Origin: a virus
IMG/VR virus record: IMGVR_UViG_3300044846_001970
Coordinates: 20,511-84,510 of that record
Strand: one strand, 5' to 3'
DNA length: 64,000 nucleotides
Every line of letters starts with the position of its first letter. Position 1 is the stretch's first letter. Positions 4,558 through 53,137 of this stretch are shown here, one piece after another. Position numbers and translations under genes: made by a program. The notes under the pieces were generated by a model, which saw nothing but the letters and a program-made list of their open reading frames with translations, did not search any database and had not been told where the DNA came from.

Positions 4558-7500
4558 TTATTTAAAACCTTTTTCTTTCATATACTTTAGAATACGTTGA
4601 TATTCTTTTGCAGTAACATCAGGTTTTCTATCTGGAGAAATCATTTGATGTGATATAACATCTTTTAAAGATAAATTATATTTTGTAGCAATAGGACTAT
4701 AATATTCTATAAAAGATTTTATTTGAGCTTCTGTTAAAGGAGTATTTACTGTATTACCTTGAAACTCAACACCAATACTAAAATCATTTACATCTTTTCT
4801 TCCATTCCATTCAGACTCTCCAGCATGGAAAGTTACTTGTTCAGGTGAAGCATATACTGTTCTTTTACCATCTTCTTCAATAACAACATGAGATGAACTT
4901 TTTCCTGGTGTCATATATTGAGTTCTAACTTGACCCTCATTATTTTTAACATCTTCATAAGCAGTATGATGTAATACAATATTTTTTACTTCATTTTTTA
5001 ATTTATGACCTTTTTTATAACTTGCATCATTTTTAGTTCTAAGGTTAGGCATGTCAAGTACATACTCTTCTTCATACTCATTAACAGGAGTTTTATAATT
5101 CATTATATATAAACCATTTCCTCCAGATGAATTTTCATTGTCATATGCTTTTAATCTGTCTGCAGTAAGTTTTTTATCATCATAAGATAATCCTCTTGAA
5201 TATGTTCCATTATCTAAAGTCCAAGCTTCAAGATATTGATTAGTTCCTTTTAATTTTTTAAATTCTTTTTTTATAGTTGATAAACTTCCAGATACTAAAT
5301 ATTGTTGTTTAGTTACAGGGTTAACAAAAAGAATTCTTCCTCCTTGAATTGAACCATAATAATCATCTTTATCTTTACCTTTTGTTAAAATATTTAAAGA
5401 ACCATCTTTTATTTTACCATTCTCAAGTACTTTTACTTTAGGTTGTTTGTATCCAGGATTACCTGATTTAGAACCATCTACATATAAATCTTCAATATCT
5501 ATAATCTTATTCATATAAGTTTGACTAAACTTCCAGTCTTTGTTATTTTTAAAATCTTTAAATTGTCCAGTATGTAAATTACCATCAGCATCTAAAGCAA
5601 ATACACTTGTATTATCTGTTATATTTTTTAATTTATCAGAATTTGTGAATGGATGGAAAGTTGTAAGTTCTAAACCTTCAGATTCAATATCATTATAATC
5701 TCCTCTATTTCTATAACCTAATTTTATATTTGATATAGGTAAGACTTGTTGTTTATAATTTCTATTACTATTAGGTATAGTAAATGATTGTTGAGTACTA
5801 TTTAAATTTTTATAATACTCACTTATGCCTAATGGATTATCATTTTCTTTTAATTCAGGTACTTTAATATCATCATCATCTATAAGCCCATAAGTTTTAC
5901 TTTTACGAATTATACCTTGACTAACATATTCTATGTACTCACCTATAGATTCTTTAGTATCTTTTATAAATTCACCTGTGTCTTCAATTGTTTCTTTAAA
6001 AGGATAATTTGTTTGAAAATCAGACATCTTAGGTGTAATAGGTTTTATTTCTTTTCCATTAGCATCATAAGATTTTTTATTAAAATCTTGTTTACTAAAT
6101 TGAGCTGCCATAGAATTAGGAATAGGCTCTACTTTATTTATTGGTTCTGGTTTTAATAAAGCTTTTTGTTGGGCAATAGTAGTTAACCTATTAAATAAAT
6201 CTTTTTCAAAATTTTCATTAATATTTTCTTTTGCTTTAGTTTTACCTTGTGTAAATGCTTGATCTATATATTTTTTTATATTACTAGGAGAAACAATTTT
6301 TGGTTCTTCAAAAGTAGTTATTCCAAATTTACTTAATATATCTTTTGGTGTTTCAACCTTTACTTCTTTTTGTGCTATACCAGGTCTTTGTAAATTTTTT
6401 ATAAAAGTAGCTACATCAATTTTTGGTGCAACAATAGGATCTTTTGCTTTAGGTTTAGGAGTTAGTATTGGTTTAGCATTTTCTATTTGTTTAGGAAATA
6501 CCTTAGAAAAAGGAATTCCTTTTGGAGCTATAGTTGCTGCATACTTTTTAAGATCTTCTTTAACAACAGTTTCTATTTTCTTTTCTATTTGCTTTGGGAA
6601 TACTTTAGGTAGAGGAATTCCTTTTGGCTTACTTTGTGCAGCATACTTACTAAGGTCTTCTTTAATAGGAGTACTTAACTCTGAAAACATATTTGTTAAA
6701 CCTTCTTTAGTACCTATACGTTTAGCAACTAAGTCTTCAAGAGTAGCACCTTTACTAATCATTCTGCTTACCATATTTTTGTATGCTTCATGATTAAAAG
6801 TTTCTTTTCTATTAGGTATTTTAGCTTCTCCAAATTCTCCTTCTAATATTTTTTTTCTTAAACTCATATTAGATTCAAAACTACCATCTGTTAAACCTTG
6901 TTTTTTAGCTTCAGACCATGGTGTACCAGTATATTGTTGCCAAAGTTGAGATACTGTTCCTCCATCAGCTTCTTTAGATAATTCATTATTATGTATTTCT
7001 TCTACTACATATCCTTCAGCAATAAGTTTTTGAATTTCTGATTTAGAAATATTTGTTTCTATTGCCCCACCTTCTTTTTTAAGTTTACCAACTCTTTGTG
7101 CTAATTTAGAAAATACTATTGGAGCTCCAGTATTTATAGTTTTACTTGTTCCATCTGCTTTTCTAATTATATTAAATCCATCTCCTGATTCTACAGAATT
7201 TTCAAATGAAAATAATGATCTTGCTCCAGCTAAGAATGGATATAATGTTGGATCACTATACTTTGTAAATGGTAATATATTAGATGCACCTTTTATTAAA
7301 TTAAATGTTCCACCTCCTATATCTCCTTGAGAATAATCAACTAAAGCATTTGGTATATGTTTAGTTCCTGTATTATACACACCATAACCTCCTAATAAAT
7401 TATTAGCATTAAGTCCTGGTAAAGCTTTAATAGGTTCATACTTTAAATAAGGAGATGCTTTTTTAGATACCTTCATTATAGTTCTAGGCACCAATCCAAA

Positions 7501-50674: not shown

Positions 50675-50941
50675 GATCATGTAGTTGGTCTTACTACAGC
50701 AGCCCCCACCCCACGCCAGCCAGGGGTGTACCCCCCATAGATATAATACAACTCTTTACTAATGATAAAGTATTTTATAAAATATATTCTACTAGAAAGA
50801 ATAATGTATGTTATGTATAGATATGATATGATATGTATGATGTATGTATATATATAGTATATATAATAGAAGATGAATGCTAGGTGTTGTGCTGGGTGTG
50901 ATGTATGATGACACACACACAACAACAACAACAAGATATAT

Positions 50942-50961
50942 TAATACAACTTTATACTATT
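50942..50961 (+). promoter_or_regulatory. early promoter motif, copy 1
   Basis: TAATACAACTTTATACTATT, about 40-46 bases before the ATG of the first rightward gene. Eight copies of this element (consensus TWATACARCTTTNNACTAWT) lie between here and 52753. Confidence 0.75.
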
Positions 50962-50987
50962 AATAATAAATATAAAACTAAATGATT

Positions 50988-51140
50988 ATGAAAGAATTAA
51001 TTAAGATTGCTATGACTATGTCTAGTATACTATGTGTGTATGTATTAGCTAGTGATGCTAATGATACCATAATGATTGCTACAGGATTTGCACTCATCAT
51101 GAGTCTTGGTATATATGTATTAGCACTTACTGATAAGTAG
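50988..51140 (+). CDS. small membrane protein (50 aa)
   Basis: ATG at 50988 (an in-frame ATG at 50982 would add two residues), stop TAG at 51138. The protein has two hydrophobic stretches (IAMTMSSILCVYVLA and TGFALIMSLGIYVLAL) and little else. It directly follows copy 1 of the early motif, so it is likely among the first genes expressed. I infer an inner-membrane host-modifying peptide; the function is unknown. Confidence 0.6.
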   Translation: MKELIKIAMTMSSILCVYVLASDANDTIMIATGFALIMSLGIYVLALTDK

Positions 51141-51156
51141 GTGTTAATGCTATATA

Positions 51157-51176
51157 TAATACAGCTTTATACTATT
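51157..51176 (+). promoter_or_regulatory. early promoter motif, copy 2
   Basis: TAATACAGCTTTATACTATT, 47 bases before the ATG at 51204. It lies inside the upstream extension of the next frame, which argues for the downstream start. Confidence 0.75.
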
Positions 51177-51203
51177 ATTAATATATATATAAAACAATTT
51201 ACT

Positions 51204-51398
51204 ATGAAACAAATTAGAATACTACACTACATTACATCAGGAATTATATTGCTTATGATTTTTGAAGGATTATTTACTATGGGCCAAGCATTTAAGTTTG
51301 ATACTTATAATTGGTTTGGATGGTTTACTCAAATAATATTCATACTGTTTACTGTATTAACAGCTATGAGAATTGCTAATGACGCAGAAGGGAAGTGA
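51204..51398 (+). CDS. small membrane protein (64 aa)
   Basis: The open frame reaches back to a GTG at 51141, but that would overlap the early motif and begin right at the previous stop; the ATG at 51204 (MKQIRILHYI) is preferred. Two transmembrane segments are visible (ITSGIILLMIFEGLFTMG and WFTQIIFILFTVLTAM). The stop codon lies in the loop of a terminator hairpin. Function unknown; an early membrane-acting protein by context. Confidence 0.65.
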   Translation: MKQIRILHYITSGIILLMIFEGLFTMGQAFKFDTYNWFGWFTQIIFILFTVLTAMRIANDAEGK

Positions 51399-51405
51399 TT
51401 CCCTT
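51388..51405 (+). terminator. terminator overlapping a stop codon
   Basis: AAGGGAA - GTGA - TTCCCTT is a 7-bp stem with a 4-base loop that includes the TGA stop of the 64-aa gene. The next early motif starts six bases later. Confidence 0.65.
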
Positions 51406-51410
51406 TATAT

Positions 51411-51430
51411 TAATACAGCTTTTAACTAAT
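51411..51430 (+). promoter_or_regulatory. early promoter motif, copy 3
   Basis: TAATACAGCTTTTAACTAAT, 42 bases before the lipoprotein ATG at 51453. Confidence 0.75.
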
Positions 51431-51452
51431 AATAATATATAAACTAAAACAA

Positions 51453-51698
51453 ATGAAAAGAAATGTAAAATTAATTATTGCCGCATACTTTGTAGCAATA
51501 ACATGTGTTGCTATGCTTGCAACATCTTGTAGTACATCAAGTCATGCATGTGATGCTTATGGCAAAGTTAAGTGGGAGAACAGCATTGATAACCCTGAGA
51601 ATGAGGAGTTTGTTGTAGAAGTTGCCTTCAATGAAGGATGTACTATAGAACAAGTGACTCAAGAACAGTTTGATGCAAGATACTCTGAAGGGTATTAA
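51453..51698 (+). CDS. small lipoprotein, paralog 1 (81 aa)
   Basis: A signal peptide with a lipobox (ATSC) is followed by SSHACDAYGKVKWENSI and a conserved acidic domain (NPENEEFVVEVAFNEG, EQVTQEQFDARY). The 81-aa gene at 54509 encodes a close paralog. The CDAYGKV segment after a Ser-rich linker resembles small Bacteroidota lipoproteins, so a host origin is possible. As an early outer-membrane lipoprotein it could block superinfection, which is an inference. It is served by copy 3 of the early motif and a terminator. Confidence 0.7.
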   Translation: MKRNVKLIIAAYFVAITCVAMLATSCSTSSHACDAYGKVKWENSIDNPENEEFVVEVAFNEGCTIEQVTQEQFDARYSEGY

Positions 51699-51702
51699 TA
51701 TA

Positions 51703-51722
51703 AGTAGAGCTTAGGCTCTACT
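51703..51722 (+). terminator. terminator after lipoprotein paralog 1
   Basis: A perfect 8-bp stem AGTAGAGC / GCTCTACT with a TTAG loop is followed by TTATTTTATT. Confidence 0.8.
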
Positions 51723-51731
51723 TTATTTTAT

Positions 51732-51751
51732 TAATACAGCTTTTGACTAAT
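51732..51751 (+). promoter_or_regulatory. early promoter motif, copy 4
   Basis: TAATACAGCTTTTGACTAAT. No ORF longer than a few codons follows before the next terminator-like hairpin. Confidence 0.75.
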
Positions 51752-51857
51752 TTTGATGAATACTATATGAGTTAACTCCAATAATAGAGATCATCTGAGC
51801 CAAGTAAGTTGATTGGCAATATAAAAATAAAAGGGTATTCAACAAACCTTTTTTTTA
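51752..51857 (+). ncRNA. candidate small RNA 1 (no ORF between promoter motif and terminator)
   Basis: The ~105 bases between copy 4 of the early motif and copy 5 have no coding capacity; the only ATG frame stops after four codons. The interval ends with an AAAGG / CCTTT hairpin and a run of eight Ts (51830-51857). It is therefore a promoter-terminator unit without a protein, which suggests a short regulatory RNA. A spacer left by gene loss is the alternative. Confidence 0.4.
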
Positions 51858-51858
51858 T

Positions 51859-51878
51859 TAATACAGCTTTTAACTATT
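51859..51878 (+). promoter_or_regulatory. early promoter motif, copy 5
   Basis: TAATACAGCTTTTAACTATT, directly after the T-run of the preceding unit. Confidence 0.75.
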
Positions 51879-52010
51879 ATTGACTAGTAAGTAGACCAAT
51901 TGAAACTTACATATGTACACCAAAAGGTTGGTTCCTTATTTGCTTTGGACCGTAATACCACAAGAGAGTTAGCACTCACCATTAGAGAGGATTCATGTCC
52001 TCTCTTTTTA
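51879..52010 (+). ncRNA. candidate small RNA 2 (or tiny-peptide transcript)
   Basis: About 130 bases between copy 5 of the early motif and a strong terminator (51984-52010). The only start frame is an 19-residue peptide from ATG at 51913 (MYTKRLVPYLLWTVIPQES). The rest shows self-complementary pieces, such as GGTTCC with GGACC around 51940-51953. A structured small RNA seems more likely than a peptide, but both are possible. Confidence 0.4.
51984..52010 (+). terminator. strong terminator
   Basis: AGAGAGGA / TCCTCTCT 8-bp stem, 6-base loop, then TTTTTA. It ends the ORF-less unit that starts at copy 5. Confidence 0.9.
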
Positions 52011-52017
52011 TTATATC

Positions 52018-52037
52018 TAATACAACTTTATACTAAT
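52018..52037 (+). promoter_or_regulatory. early promoter motif, copy 6
   Basis: TAATACAACTTTATACTAAT, 35 bases before the ATG at 52053. Confidence 0.75.
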
Positions 52038-52052
52038 CTTAAAACTTAAACT

Positions 52053-52244
52053 ATGATTGCAAAAATTATCTTTGTATGGTACTTGTTTACAGGTACTATA
52101 ATTCCCACAGAAAAAGTGGATGACAGACAATGCTATTCCGTTTTCTTTGAAGATGGAAAATGTGTAGACTTAGCCTATAAGGGTGAAGTATTAGAATGGA
52201 TTGAGACAGATTCATTTGAGTATGATGAAGACAGAGAGGATTAA
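52053..52244 (+). CDS. small early protein with N-terminal hydrophobic segment (63 aa)
   Basis: The first ~18 residues (MIAKIIFVWYLFTGTIIP) form a signal-like or membrane segment. The remainder is acidic, with YSVFFEDGKCVDLAYKGEVL and an Asp/Glu-rich end. It probably sits at or beyond the inner membrane. Preceded by copy 6 of the early motif and followed by a terminator overlapping its stop. Function unknown. Confidence 0.65.
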   Translation: MIAKIIFVWYLFTGTIIPTEKVDDRQCYSVFFEDGKCVDLAYKGEVLEWIETDSFEYDEDRED

Positions 52245-52260
52245 TTTCCTCTTTGTTTTT
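52235..52260 (+). terminator. terminator overlapping a stop codon
   Basis: AGAGGA / TCCTCT stem around the TAA stop of the 63-aa gene, followed by TTGTTTTTTTTG. Confidence 0.7.
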
Positions 52261-52336
52261 TTTGTCTCCAGCCTGTGTAACAAGTAGACTTTGGTACTGA
52301 TAATCAGATAGTTAAAAAATTGCTTACGCGTCTTTT

Positions 52337-52356
52337 TTATACAGCTTTTAACTAAT
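52337..52356 (+). promoter_or_regulatory. early promoter motif, copy 7
   Basis: TTATACAGCTTTTAACTAAT, 51 bases before the ATG at 52388. The preceding GCTTACGCGTCTTTTTT is nearly repeated before copy 8. Confidence 0.75.
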
Positions 52357-52387
52357 TTTGATTATTAACCTTTAAAATTTATTTATT

Positions 52388-52675
52388 ATGTTTACAAAAA
52401 CACAAACTTTACAAGCATTTGCTAATGCTAACGGAATTACTAAGTTGGACCTTGTTAAGAACCCCAACACAGGTAAAAGATTTGCTACAACCAATACAGG
52501 GCTTACTATGCGCATCTCTGAGAAAGTCTCTTCAGACTTAGACGGAGAATATAGCATCTCTTGGTTTGCACCTGAAGATGGAGAAGCATCTTGGATGTTA
52601 CACCCAACAGGAGTTAGTAATGTACTTGGTACACTTAGCTTTGCACCTGTTGCTAACTTTGAGACAGCAATCTAA
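52388..52675 (+). CDS. early soluble protein (95 aa)
   Basis: A folded-looking alpha/beta protein: FTKTQTLQAFANANGITKLD forms an N-terminal helix, then VKNPNTGKRFATTNTGLTMR and a beta-rich rest. Similar small proteins occur in other phages, without function. It has its own early motif copy and terminator and is less AT-rich than neighbours, which suggests strong expression. Confidence 0.65.
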   Translation: MFTKTQTLQAFANANGITKLDLVKNPNTGKRFATTNTGLTMRISEKVSSDLDGEYSISWFAPEDGEASWMLHPTGVSNVLGTLSFAPVANFETAI

Positions 52676-52684
52676 GCACTATAG

Positions 52685-52704
52685 CCCACACTTAACTGTG
52701 TGGG
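52685..52704 (+). terminator. terminator after 95-aa early gene
   Basis: CCCACAC / GTGTGGG 7-bp stem with a 6-base loop, followed by TTATTTTTTATT. Confidence 0.9.
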
Positions 52705-52733
52705 TTATTTTTTATTAAAGCTTCGCGTCTTTT

Positions 52734-52753
52734 TTATACAGCTTTCTACTAAT
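52734..52753 (+). promoter_or_regulatory. early promoter motif, copy 8
   Basis: TTATACAGCTTTCTACTAAT. It is followed by a structured, ORF-free stretch rather than a gene. Confidence 0.7.
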
Positions 52754-52755
52754 AT

Positions 52756-52807
52756 TGTGCTGTTAATGTAGTGTTATATAGTACCAATAATTGGTATTAC
52801 CAGCACA
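52756..52807 (+). ncRNA. candidate structured RNA after early motif copy 8
   Basis: TGTGCTGTTAAT (52756-52767) pairs with ATTACCAGCACA (52796-52807) with one mismatch, and an inner hairpin ACCAA-TAA-TTGGT lies at 52783-52795. The element begins three bases after the promoter motif. Together they suggest a short transcript with a stable fold; a protein-binding DNA site is the alternative. Confidence 0.4.
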
Positions 52808-53137
52808 TATTAGTATGCTCAAAAGTATCTTTACAGATATCCTGAAAGCTATAGTGGTAAAGGGTTTGAGAATTAAATAATGTGAGAGAAAGAGTGAGAA
52901 ATTGACTAATAATCTCTCTATGTTTTTATTATAACAAACTTTATAGTTAATTGGGTTAACAGCCTTTACATTAATTTATATAGCTAAATAGCTTAAATAA
53001 CTTTACTATTATCTTTGTTATCTCTCTCTATAGTTAGAATAGCATAATTAGTATTTCCCGAATATTTCAGTTTTTTATATATAGCCAATTACAGGGCTTG
53101 GTACTGTTATTATGATTACAATCTTAAATTACAAGTT
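52808..53137 (+). other. gene-free AT-rich stretch
   Basis: I see no convincing gene here. A weak GAGAGA / TCTCTC pair with a T-run (about 52880-52930) could terminate the copy-8 transcript. A degenerate early-motif-like sequence follows at about 52933-52953 (TAACAAACTTTATAGTTAAT). The rest is AT-rich leader up to the 52-aa gene. Confidence 0.4.

Follow-up and report, generated by a model that had tools for sequence, protein, structure and literature searches.

A phage early region in which promoter-like motifs are followed by terminators with no gene between them raises the question of whether such intervals specify functional RNAs. Two intervals of this kind, here called units A and B, were proposed as early small RNAs in a sequence-only reading of the window, the 64,000-nucleotide stretch analysed here, which forms the final 64 kb of an 84.5-kb IMG/VR virus record (G000). 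The crAss-like phages rank among the most abundant, and because the window terminase matches phrog_6681 and is 22-25% identical to the terminases of annotated crAss-like and Flavobacterium phages, the source phage is, on terminase comparison, a member of an environmental crAss-like lineage that has no near representative among the annotated phages.

Layout of the early cassette

The motif ATACARCTTTNNACTA is present as eight exact copies within 1.8 kb (50944-52751), all on the plus strand and starting at 50944, 51159, 51413, 51734, 51861, 52020, 52339 and 52736, against a chance expectation of 0.0005 exact copies per 3 kb; a ninth copy, at 50746, carries one mismatch. The eight copies and the bracketing of both units by copies 4, 5 and 6 are as originally described. 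Five of the eight copies have the ATG of a small gene 17-33 bases downstream, and copies 4 (51734-51749) and 5 (51861-51876), the putative promoters of units A and B, are followed by ORF-less sequence. Copy 6 (52020-52035) serves as promoter for the protein gene that follows (52053-52244), and therefore unit B ends upstream of that gene's promoter. Among the surrounding genes, the small early protein encoded at 52388-52675 has tandem paralogues at loci L106 and L105, and the early protein gene at 53975-54259 matches phrog_4074, a family of unknown function.

The interval sizes first estimated, approximately 105 and 130 bases, correspond to a unit A of about 103-107 nt (51750-51856, plus strand) and a unit B of about 130 nt (51880-52009, plus strand). 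A terminator scan returned 11 strong intrinsic sites in 6 kb where 1.6 were expected, including the end of unit B (51984-52009, a hairpin at 51984-52005 plus a T-run). Unit A also ends in a hairpin and T-run, but a weaker one (51829-51856, AAAAGG and CCTTTT around a 12-nt loop, seen in the sequence and its fold), which was left unflagged because its loop exceeds the loop limit of the scan. The absence of any ORF longer than 19 codons holds for ATG frames, the longest being 4 codons in unit A and 19 in unit B; a TTG-started frame of 49 codons (51900-52049) reads through the unit B terminator. The description of two gene-less units likewise stands for A and B, with the qualification that motif copy 8 also precedes only a 21-codon ATG frame, in a third such stretch (52752-52935) whose 3' part resembles conserved non-coding DNA of related phages.

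In related phages the cassette is laid out alike and the motif appears in another 'dialect', for instance ACCATTTTATAACT at L100 and L106; this supports the reading of the motif as an early promoter, and transcription of units A and B is predicted from motif and terminator together. Individual dialects before small early genes were seen in the window, L099, L100, L105, L106, L133 and L151, with ATACAGCTTTTAACTA, ACCATTTTATAACT and AAACTTCTTTATACTT as examples among the cassettes. The arrangement resembles the N4-like early program of phi14:2, which is driven by a virion RNA polymerase (review PMC10136315), in that a motif-repeat early cassette is accompanied by a giant ORF with a DFDVD motif. 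This ORF lies outside the window in record G000 (L231, 2-8107), spans at least 2702 codons, and is a candidate virion RNA polymerase, as its motif, SGADFDVDK, would fit. It differs from the N4-like case in that no sequence match to solved RNA polymerases was found, and its use of the early motif is presumed.

Conservation and structure of unit B

The first clue to relatives of unit B, noticed by eye, was an ORF-less unit at L100 that shares CCTTATT-GCTTTGG and TTAGCA with it. A pattern scan of viral contigs then found units in other crAss-like contigs, and a second pattern gave 13 distinct sequences in 17 contigs, the window's included. The covariance search across related phages suggested by the sequence-only reading added L129 (E=1.4e-9), a locus retrieved for a separate purpose, in which the stem of the second hairpin is wholly replaced (ACUC/GAGU) and its loop kept. 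ORF-less relatives are thus present in 17 IMG/VR contigs besides the window's, from diverged crAss-like phages. CCTTATT, GCTTTGGA and GTAA were fixed in the search pattern, among them parts of loop b and its inner stem, so that most members are bound to share these segments unchanged, L129 being the main exception. The TTAGCA hairpin was absent from the scan pattern and nevertheless follows every true match; two viral pattern matches without it were rejected as chance.

Rfam 15 gave no match in the window at the gathering threshold, and a relaxed search at E<=5 touched neither unit apart from a chance miRNA model (E=2.2); no annotated phage matched the region by blastn. The unit B model found nothing convincing in phi14:2, PhiCrAssBcn17, cr130_1, cr127_1, ProJPt-Bp1 or FpV21, and, as a measure of specificity, no match in 886 kb around the terminase genes of relatives. 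Bacterial genomes yielded nine pattern matches, 0/9 of which were followed by TTAGCA, and a Dysgonomonas genome match of 24.7 bits, which lacks TTATTGCTTT, was taken as chance.

In the nearest relative, L151, identity reaches 94.6% over 129 nt, exactly the extent of the predicted unit B transcript. The conserved block begins at TTGACTAG, just past the promoter, and stops in the terminator T-run, and the promoter dialect and both flanking genes differ between the two phages. Identity that stops at the transcript ends, with promoter and neighbours changed, indicates that the conserved object is the transcript. This bears on the reading of unit B as a conserved DNA site for recombination or packaging. 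A nearby non-coding element at 52264-52320 is even more conserved, and in another phage it lies between terS and terL, which would suit such a reading; however, unit B's conservation ends with the transcript, its stems covary around single-stranded loops, and its place within the cassette varies among phages, so that a DNA site is highly improbable.

Three hairpins were identified within unit B, in each of which a constant loop sits on a variable stem. Hairpin a (51887-51910) has the window stem GTAAGT/ACTTAC around AGACCAATTGAA, hairpin b (51930-51951) GGTTCC/GGACC around TTATTTGCTTT, and hairpin c (51966-51977) GAGT/ACTC around TAGC. Across members, the stem of a appears as GUAAGU/ACUUAC (window), CUGAU/AUCAG (L139), AGAG/CUCU (L132) and UCCU/AGGA (L129); that of b as UCUCC/GGAGA, UUUCC/GGAAA, GUCC/GGAC and ACUC/GAGU; and that of c as GAGU/ACUC, GGAU/AUCC and GCUU/AGGC. 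The corresponding invariant loops are UGAAC-AAUGAU in a, which takes the form UGAAC(A/U)AAUGAU or the window form and is unrecognizable in four members (L152, L156, L157 and L158), UUAUUGCUUU in b and U-UAGC-A in c.

Swapping 3' strands among distinct stems abolished pairing, with permutation p values of 0.00025 (a), 0.021 (b) and 0.0033 (c). Tree structure among the related members inflates these tests, and the stems underwent a modest number of independent changes; taken singly, the support for hairpin b is weak. Covariation in the core alignment was 0.352, compared with 0.121 +/- 0.033 in shuffled alignments (0/500 reaching the observed value) and at most 0.162 with slid partners, and RNAalifold recovered hairpins b and c unaided. 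The window copy folded alone is unremarkable (z -1.7), and the structural case therefore depends on comparison. Across these comparisons, it is close to certain that unit B represents a genuine family of structured non-coding RNA.

A very small conserved peptide could account for conservation in an early unit, and the 19-codon ATG frame MYTKRLVPYLLWTVIPQES, starting at 51913, would be its candidate coding sequence. Relative to other members, however, an extra T in the window's loop b shifts this frame, which excludes a conserved peptide as far as the alignment can do so; the start codon is not common to members, those of the L132 type run into a stop codon immediately past the loop, and the stem changes are compensatory pairs that do not follow codon position. 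The conserved short peptide that would have spoken against a functional RNA was accordingly not found, and there is scarcely any likelihood of one.

Position also suggests a cis-acting leader or attenuator, as unit B precedes a gene and is closed by a terminator. Such a role is unlikely because the downstream gene has its own early motif past the unit B terminator and, by reading of the window, L151, L133, L139, L132, L157 and L158, is different in every relative. Among the cassettes examined, the phage's own early motif follows unit B in the window, L132, L135, L139, L151, L153 and L161. An independent trans-acting RNA is, by comparison with a cis element, the strongly favoured interpretation.

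The proposal of functional RNA consequently stood for unit B, through its homologues, compensatory stems, invariant loops, conservation to the transcript ends and lack of a conserved peptide, and was reduced to plausibility for unit A.

Unit A and other non-coding elements of the cassette

No relatives of unit A were found among 183 loci by blastn or nhmmer, and its fold is no better than that of shuffled sequences (z -1.3). The two units are thus unequally supported, with unit A, defined by its motif, hairpin and ORF list, a plausible short transcript and probably a second, lineage-specific early transcript in the cassette of unit B; the odds that it is a functional RNA are about even.

A different conserved ORF-less RNA of about 90 nt, A-prime, occupies the place of unit A in L151 (reverse strand, about 307-400) and L133 (4556-4644), directly upstream of unit B in both, and is also present in L117 (reverse strand, about 6040-6150). 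Its core is TGATAAGTGG...GTAGTAACTG.GGG, and the stem closing its 5' and 3' ends varies between GAGAAAA/UUUUCUC (L151, L117) and AGAAAGC/GCUUUCU (L133). In L133 there is no clear promoter between A-prime and unit B. Alignment of unit A with the A-prime family gave no convincing homology.

Further ORF-less promoter-terminator units were observed in related cassettes, at L100 (12291-12390), L106 (6599-6742), L099 (6701-6815), L117, L153 (reverse strand) and L111 (5566-5715). Some of these other ORF-less units have strong folds (L008 copy, z -2.6), and most are limited to one or a few contigs.

The element at 52264-52320, GTCTCCA(C/G)C.GTGTAACAAGTAGACT.....A(C/T)TGATAATCA, was found in 25 viral contigs by pattern scan, including L099, L106, L105, L109 and L111, and is 80-89% conserved where early proteins are only about 50% identical. 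The conserved non-coding DNA that follows this element in relatives is that resembled by the 3' part of the window's third ORF-less stretch. As the L109 copy sits between the genes for the small and large terminase subunits, the element may mark a packaging site or a genome end.

Distribution and possible action of unit B

Besides the window phage, unit B occurs in G031, whose terminase is 95% identical to the window's; it was not found in the records G001 and G043, whose terminases are 94-95% identical. It is also present in G035/G038, with a terminase identity of 29%, and in G037, whose terminase matches the PHROG family of the window's. Sporadic occurrence among close relatives combined with conservation across distant ones is the pattern that an accessory early element moving between phages would give.

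This distribution also separates unit B from a familiar type of phage RNA. The phi29-type pRNA is a phage-encoded structured non-coding RNA of a size similar to that of unit B. Unit B differs from it in having no Rfam match and in being unmatched in the close relatives G001 and G043, and such sporadic presence is unlike an essential packaging part. A second likeness, to the TROVE (Ro60)/Y RNA system, is offered by the early crAss-like context, as phi-crAss001 carries an early TROVE gene (PMC8375218). A Y RNA/TROVE partnership was not supported, given that PF05731 is absent from the 84.5-kb record G000, which is possibly incomplete, and that there was no Rfam Y-RNA match.

The most specific proposal considered was that unit B is an RNA anti-CRISPR, in which loop b (AUUGCUUU) would imitate the repeat found in Flavobacteriaceae Cas9 arrays and sequester tracrRNA. 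Loop b shares ATTGCTTT with Flavobacteriaceae Cas9 repeats, one type of which, GTTGTGAATTGCTTTCAGAATTGTATTTTTACTTAGCATTCACAGT, also carries GTA and TTAGCA in the order seen in unit B, and CCUUAUUGCUUU would be able to pair with the tracrRNA segment AAAGCAAU-UCAC-AAUAAGG. However, five tracrRNAs were predicted to pair with it no better than background windows do (loop b, fractions 0.09-0.24; whole unit B, 0.31-0.59), and the full pattern was not enriched in the CRISPR arrays of 248 Bacteroidota genomes. TTAGCA is missing from other repeat types and its complement from tracrRNA, and the idea is post hoc, comparing repeats from Flavobacteriaceae that may not be those of the host. Nor did unit B qualify as a solitary near-copy of a CRISPR repeat, local alignment to four repeats giving p values from 0.002 to 0.75. 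Like a Racr, unit B would be a short phage-encoded non-coding RNA downstream of its own promoter, with a weak echo of a CRISPR repeat (PMC10651486); unlike a Racr, it has no near-identity to a repeat, possesses three conserved hairpins of its own and is predicted to pair with tracrRNA at no more than background level. In the Racr paper, tracrRNA goes unmentioned in the main text (PMC10651486). Taken together, the anti-CRISPR reading is very unlikely.

The trans-acting small RNA is accordingly retained as the preferred reading, with the following proposed course. Unit B would encode an early small RNA of roughly 130 nt. Transcription would be driven by the unit's own early motif, and the RNA would fold into the three hairpins indicated by covariation plus the terminator hairpin and would be released before the promoter of the next gene. 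As the three constant loops sit on variable stems, they may form the working surface, contacting RNA or protein in trans. Complements of unit B near start codons of its own phage were not consistent, leaving self-regulation through loop b with no target. The location in an early cassette, the coming and going among close relatives and the conservation across diverged phages point to host takeover, or counter-defence against something widespread in Bacteroidota, as the most likely function of the RNA; this host-directed or counter-defence role, as a claim of its own, falls slightly short of an even chance. The whole account, comprising an early, terminator-released, trans-acting small RNA with a proposed part in host takeover or counter-defence and unit A as a second transcript, is given a probability of about 0.7. 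A bolder and rather improbable extension is that unit B founds an early-RNA class in diverged crAss-like phages, its three loops docking on one conserved host RNA or ribonucleoprotein, for which a defence complex such as Cas9-tracrRNA is one candidate, and disarming the cell in the first minutes of infection.

A literature search on non-coding RNA of crAss-like phages returned nothing relevant, and the original statement that no counterpart has been described holds for Rfam and the searchable literature, phage-encoded small RNAs being already known as a kind. Within that kind, unit B is, as judged from sequence comparison, a new family of structured RNA. Promoter-terminator units that lack an ORF merit annotation in the early regions of phages, as related cassettes contain several more, and a conserved early RNA with fixed loops provides a concrete handle on the takeover of Bacteroidota cells by crAss-like phages.
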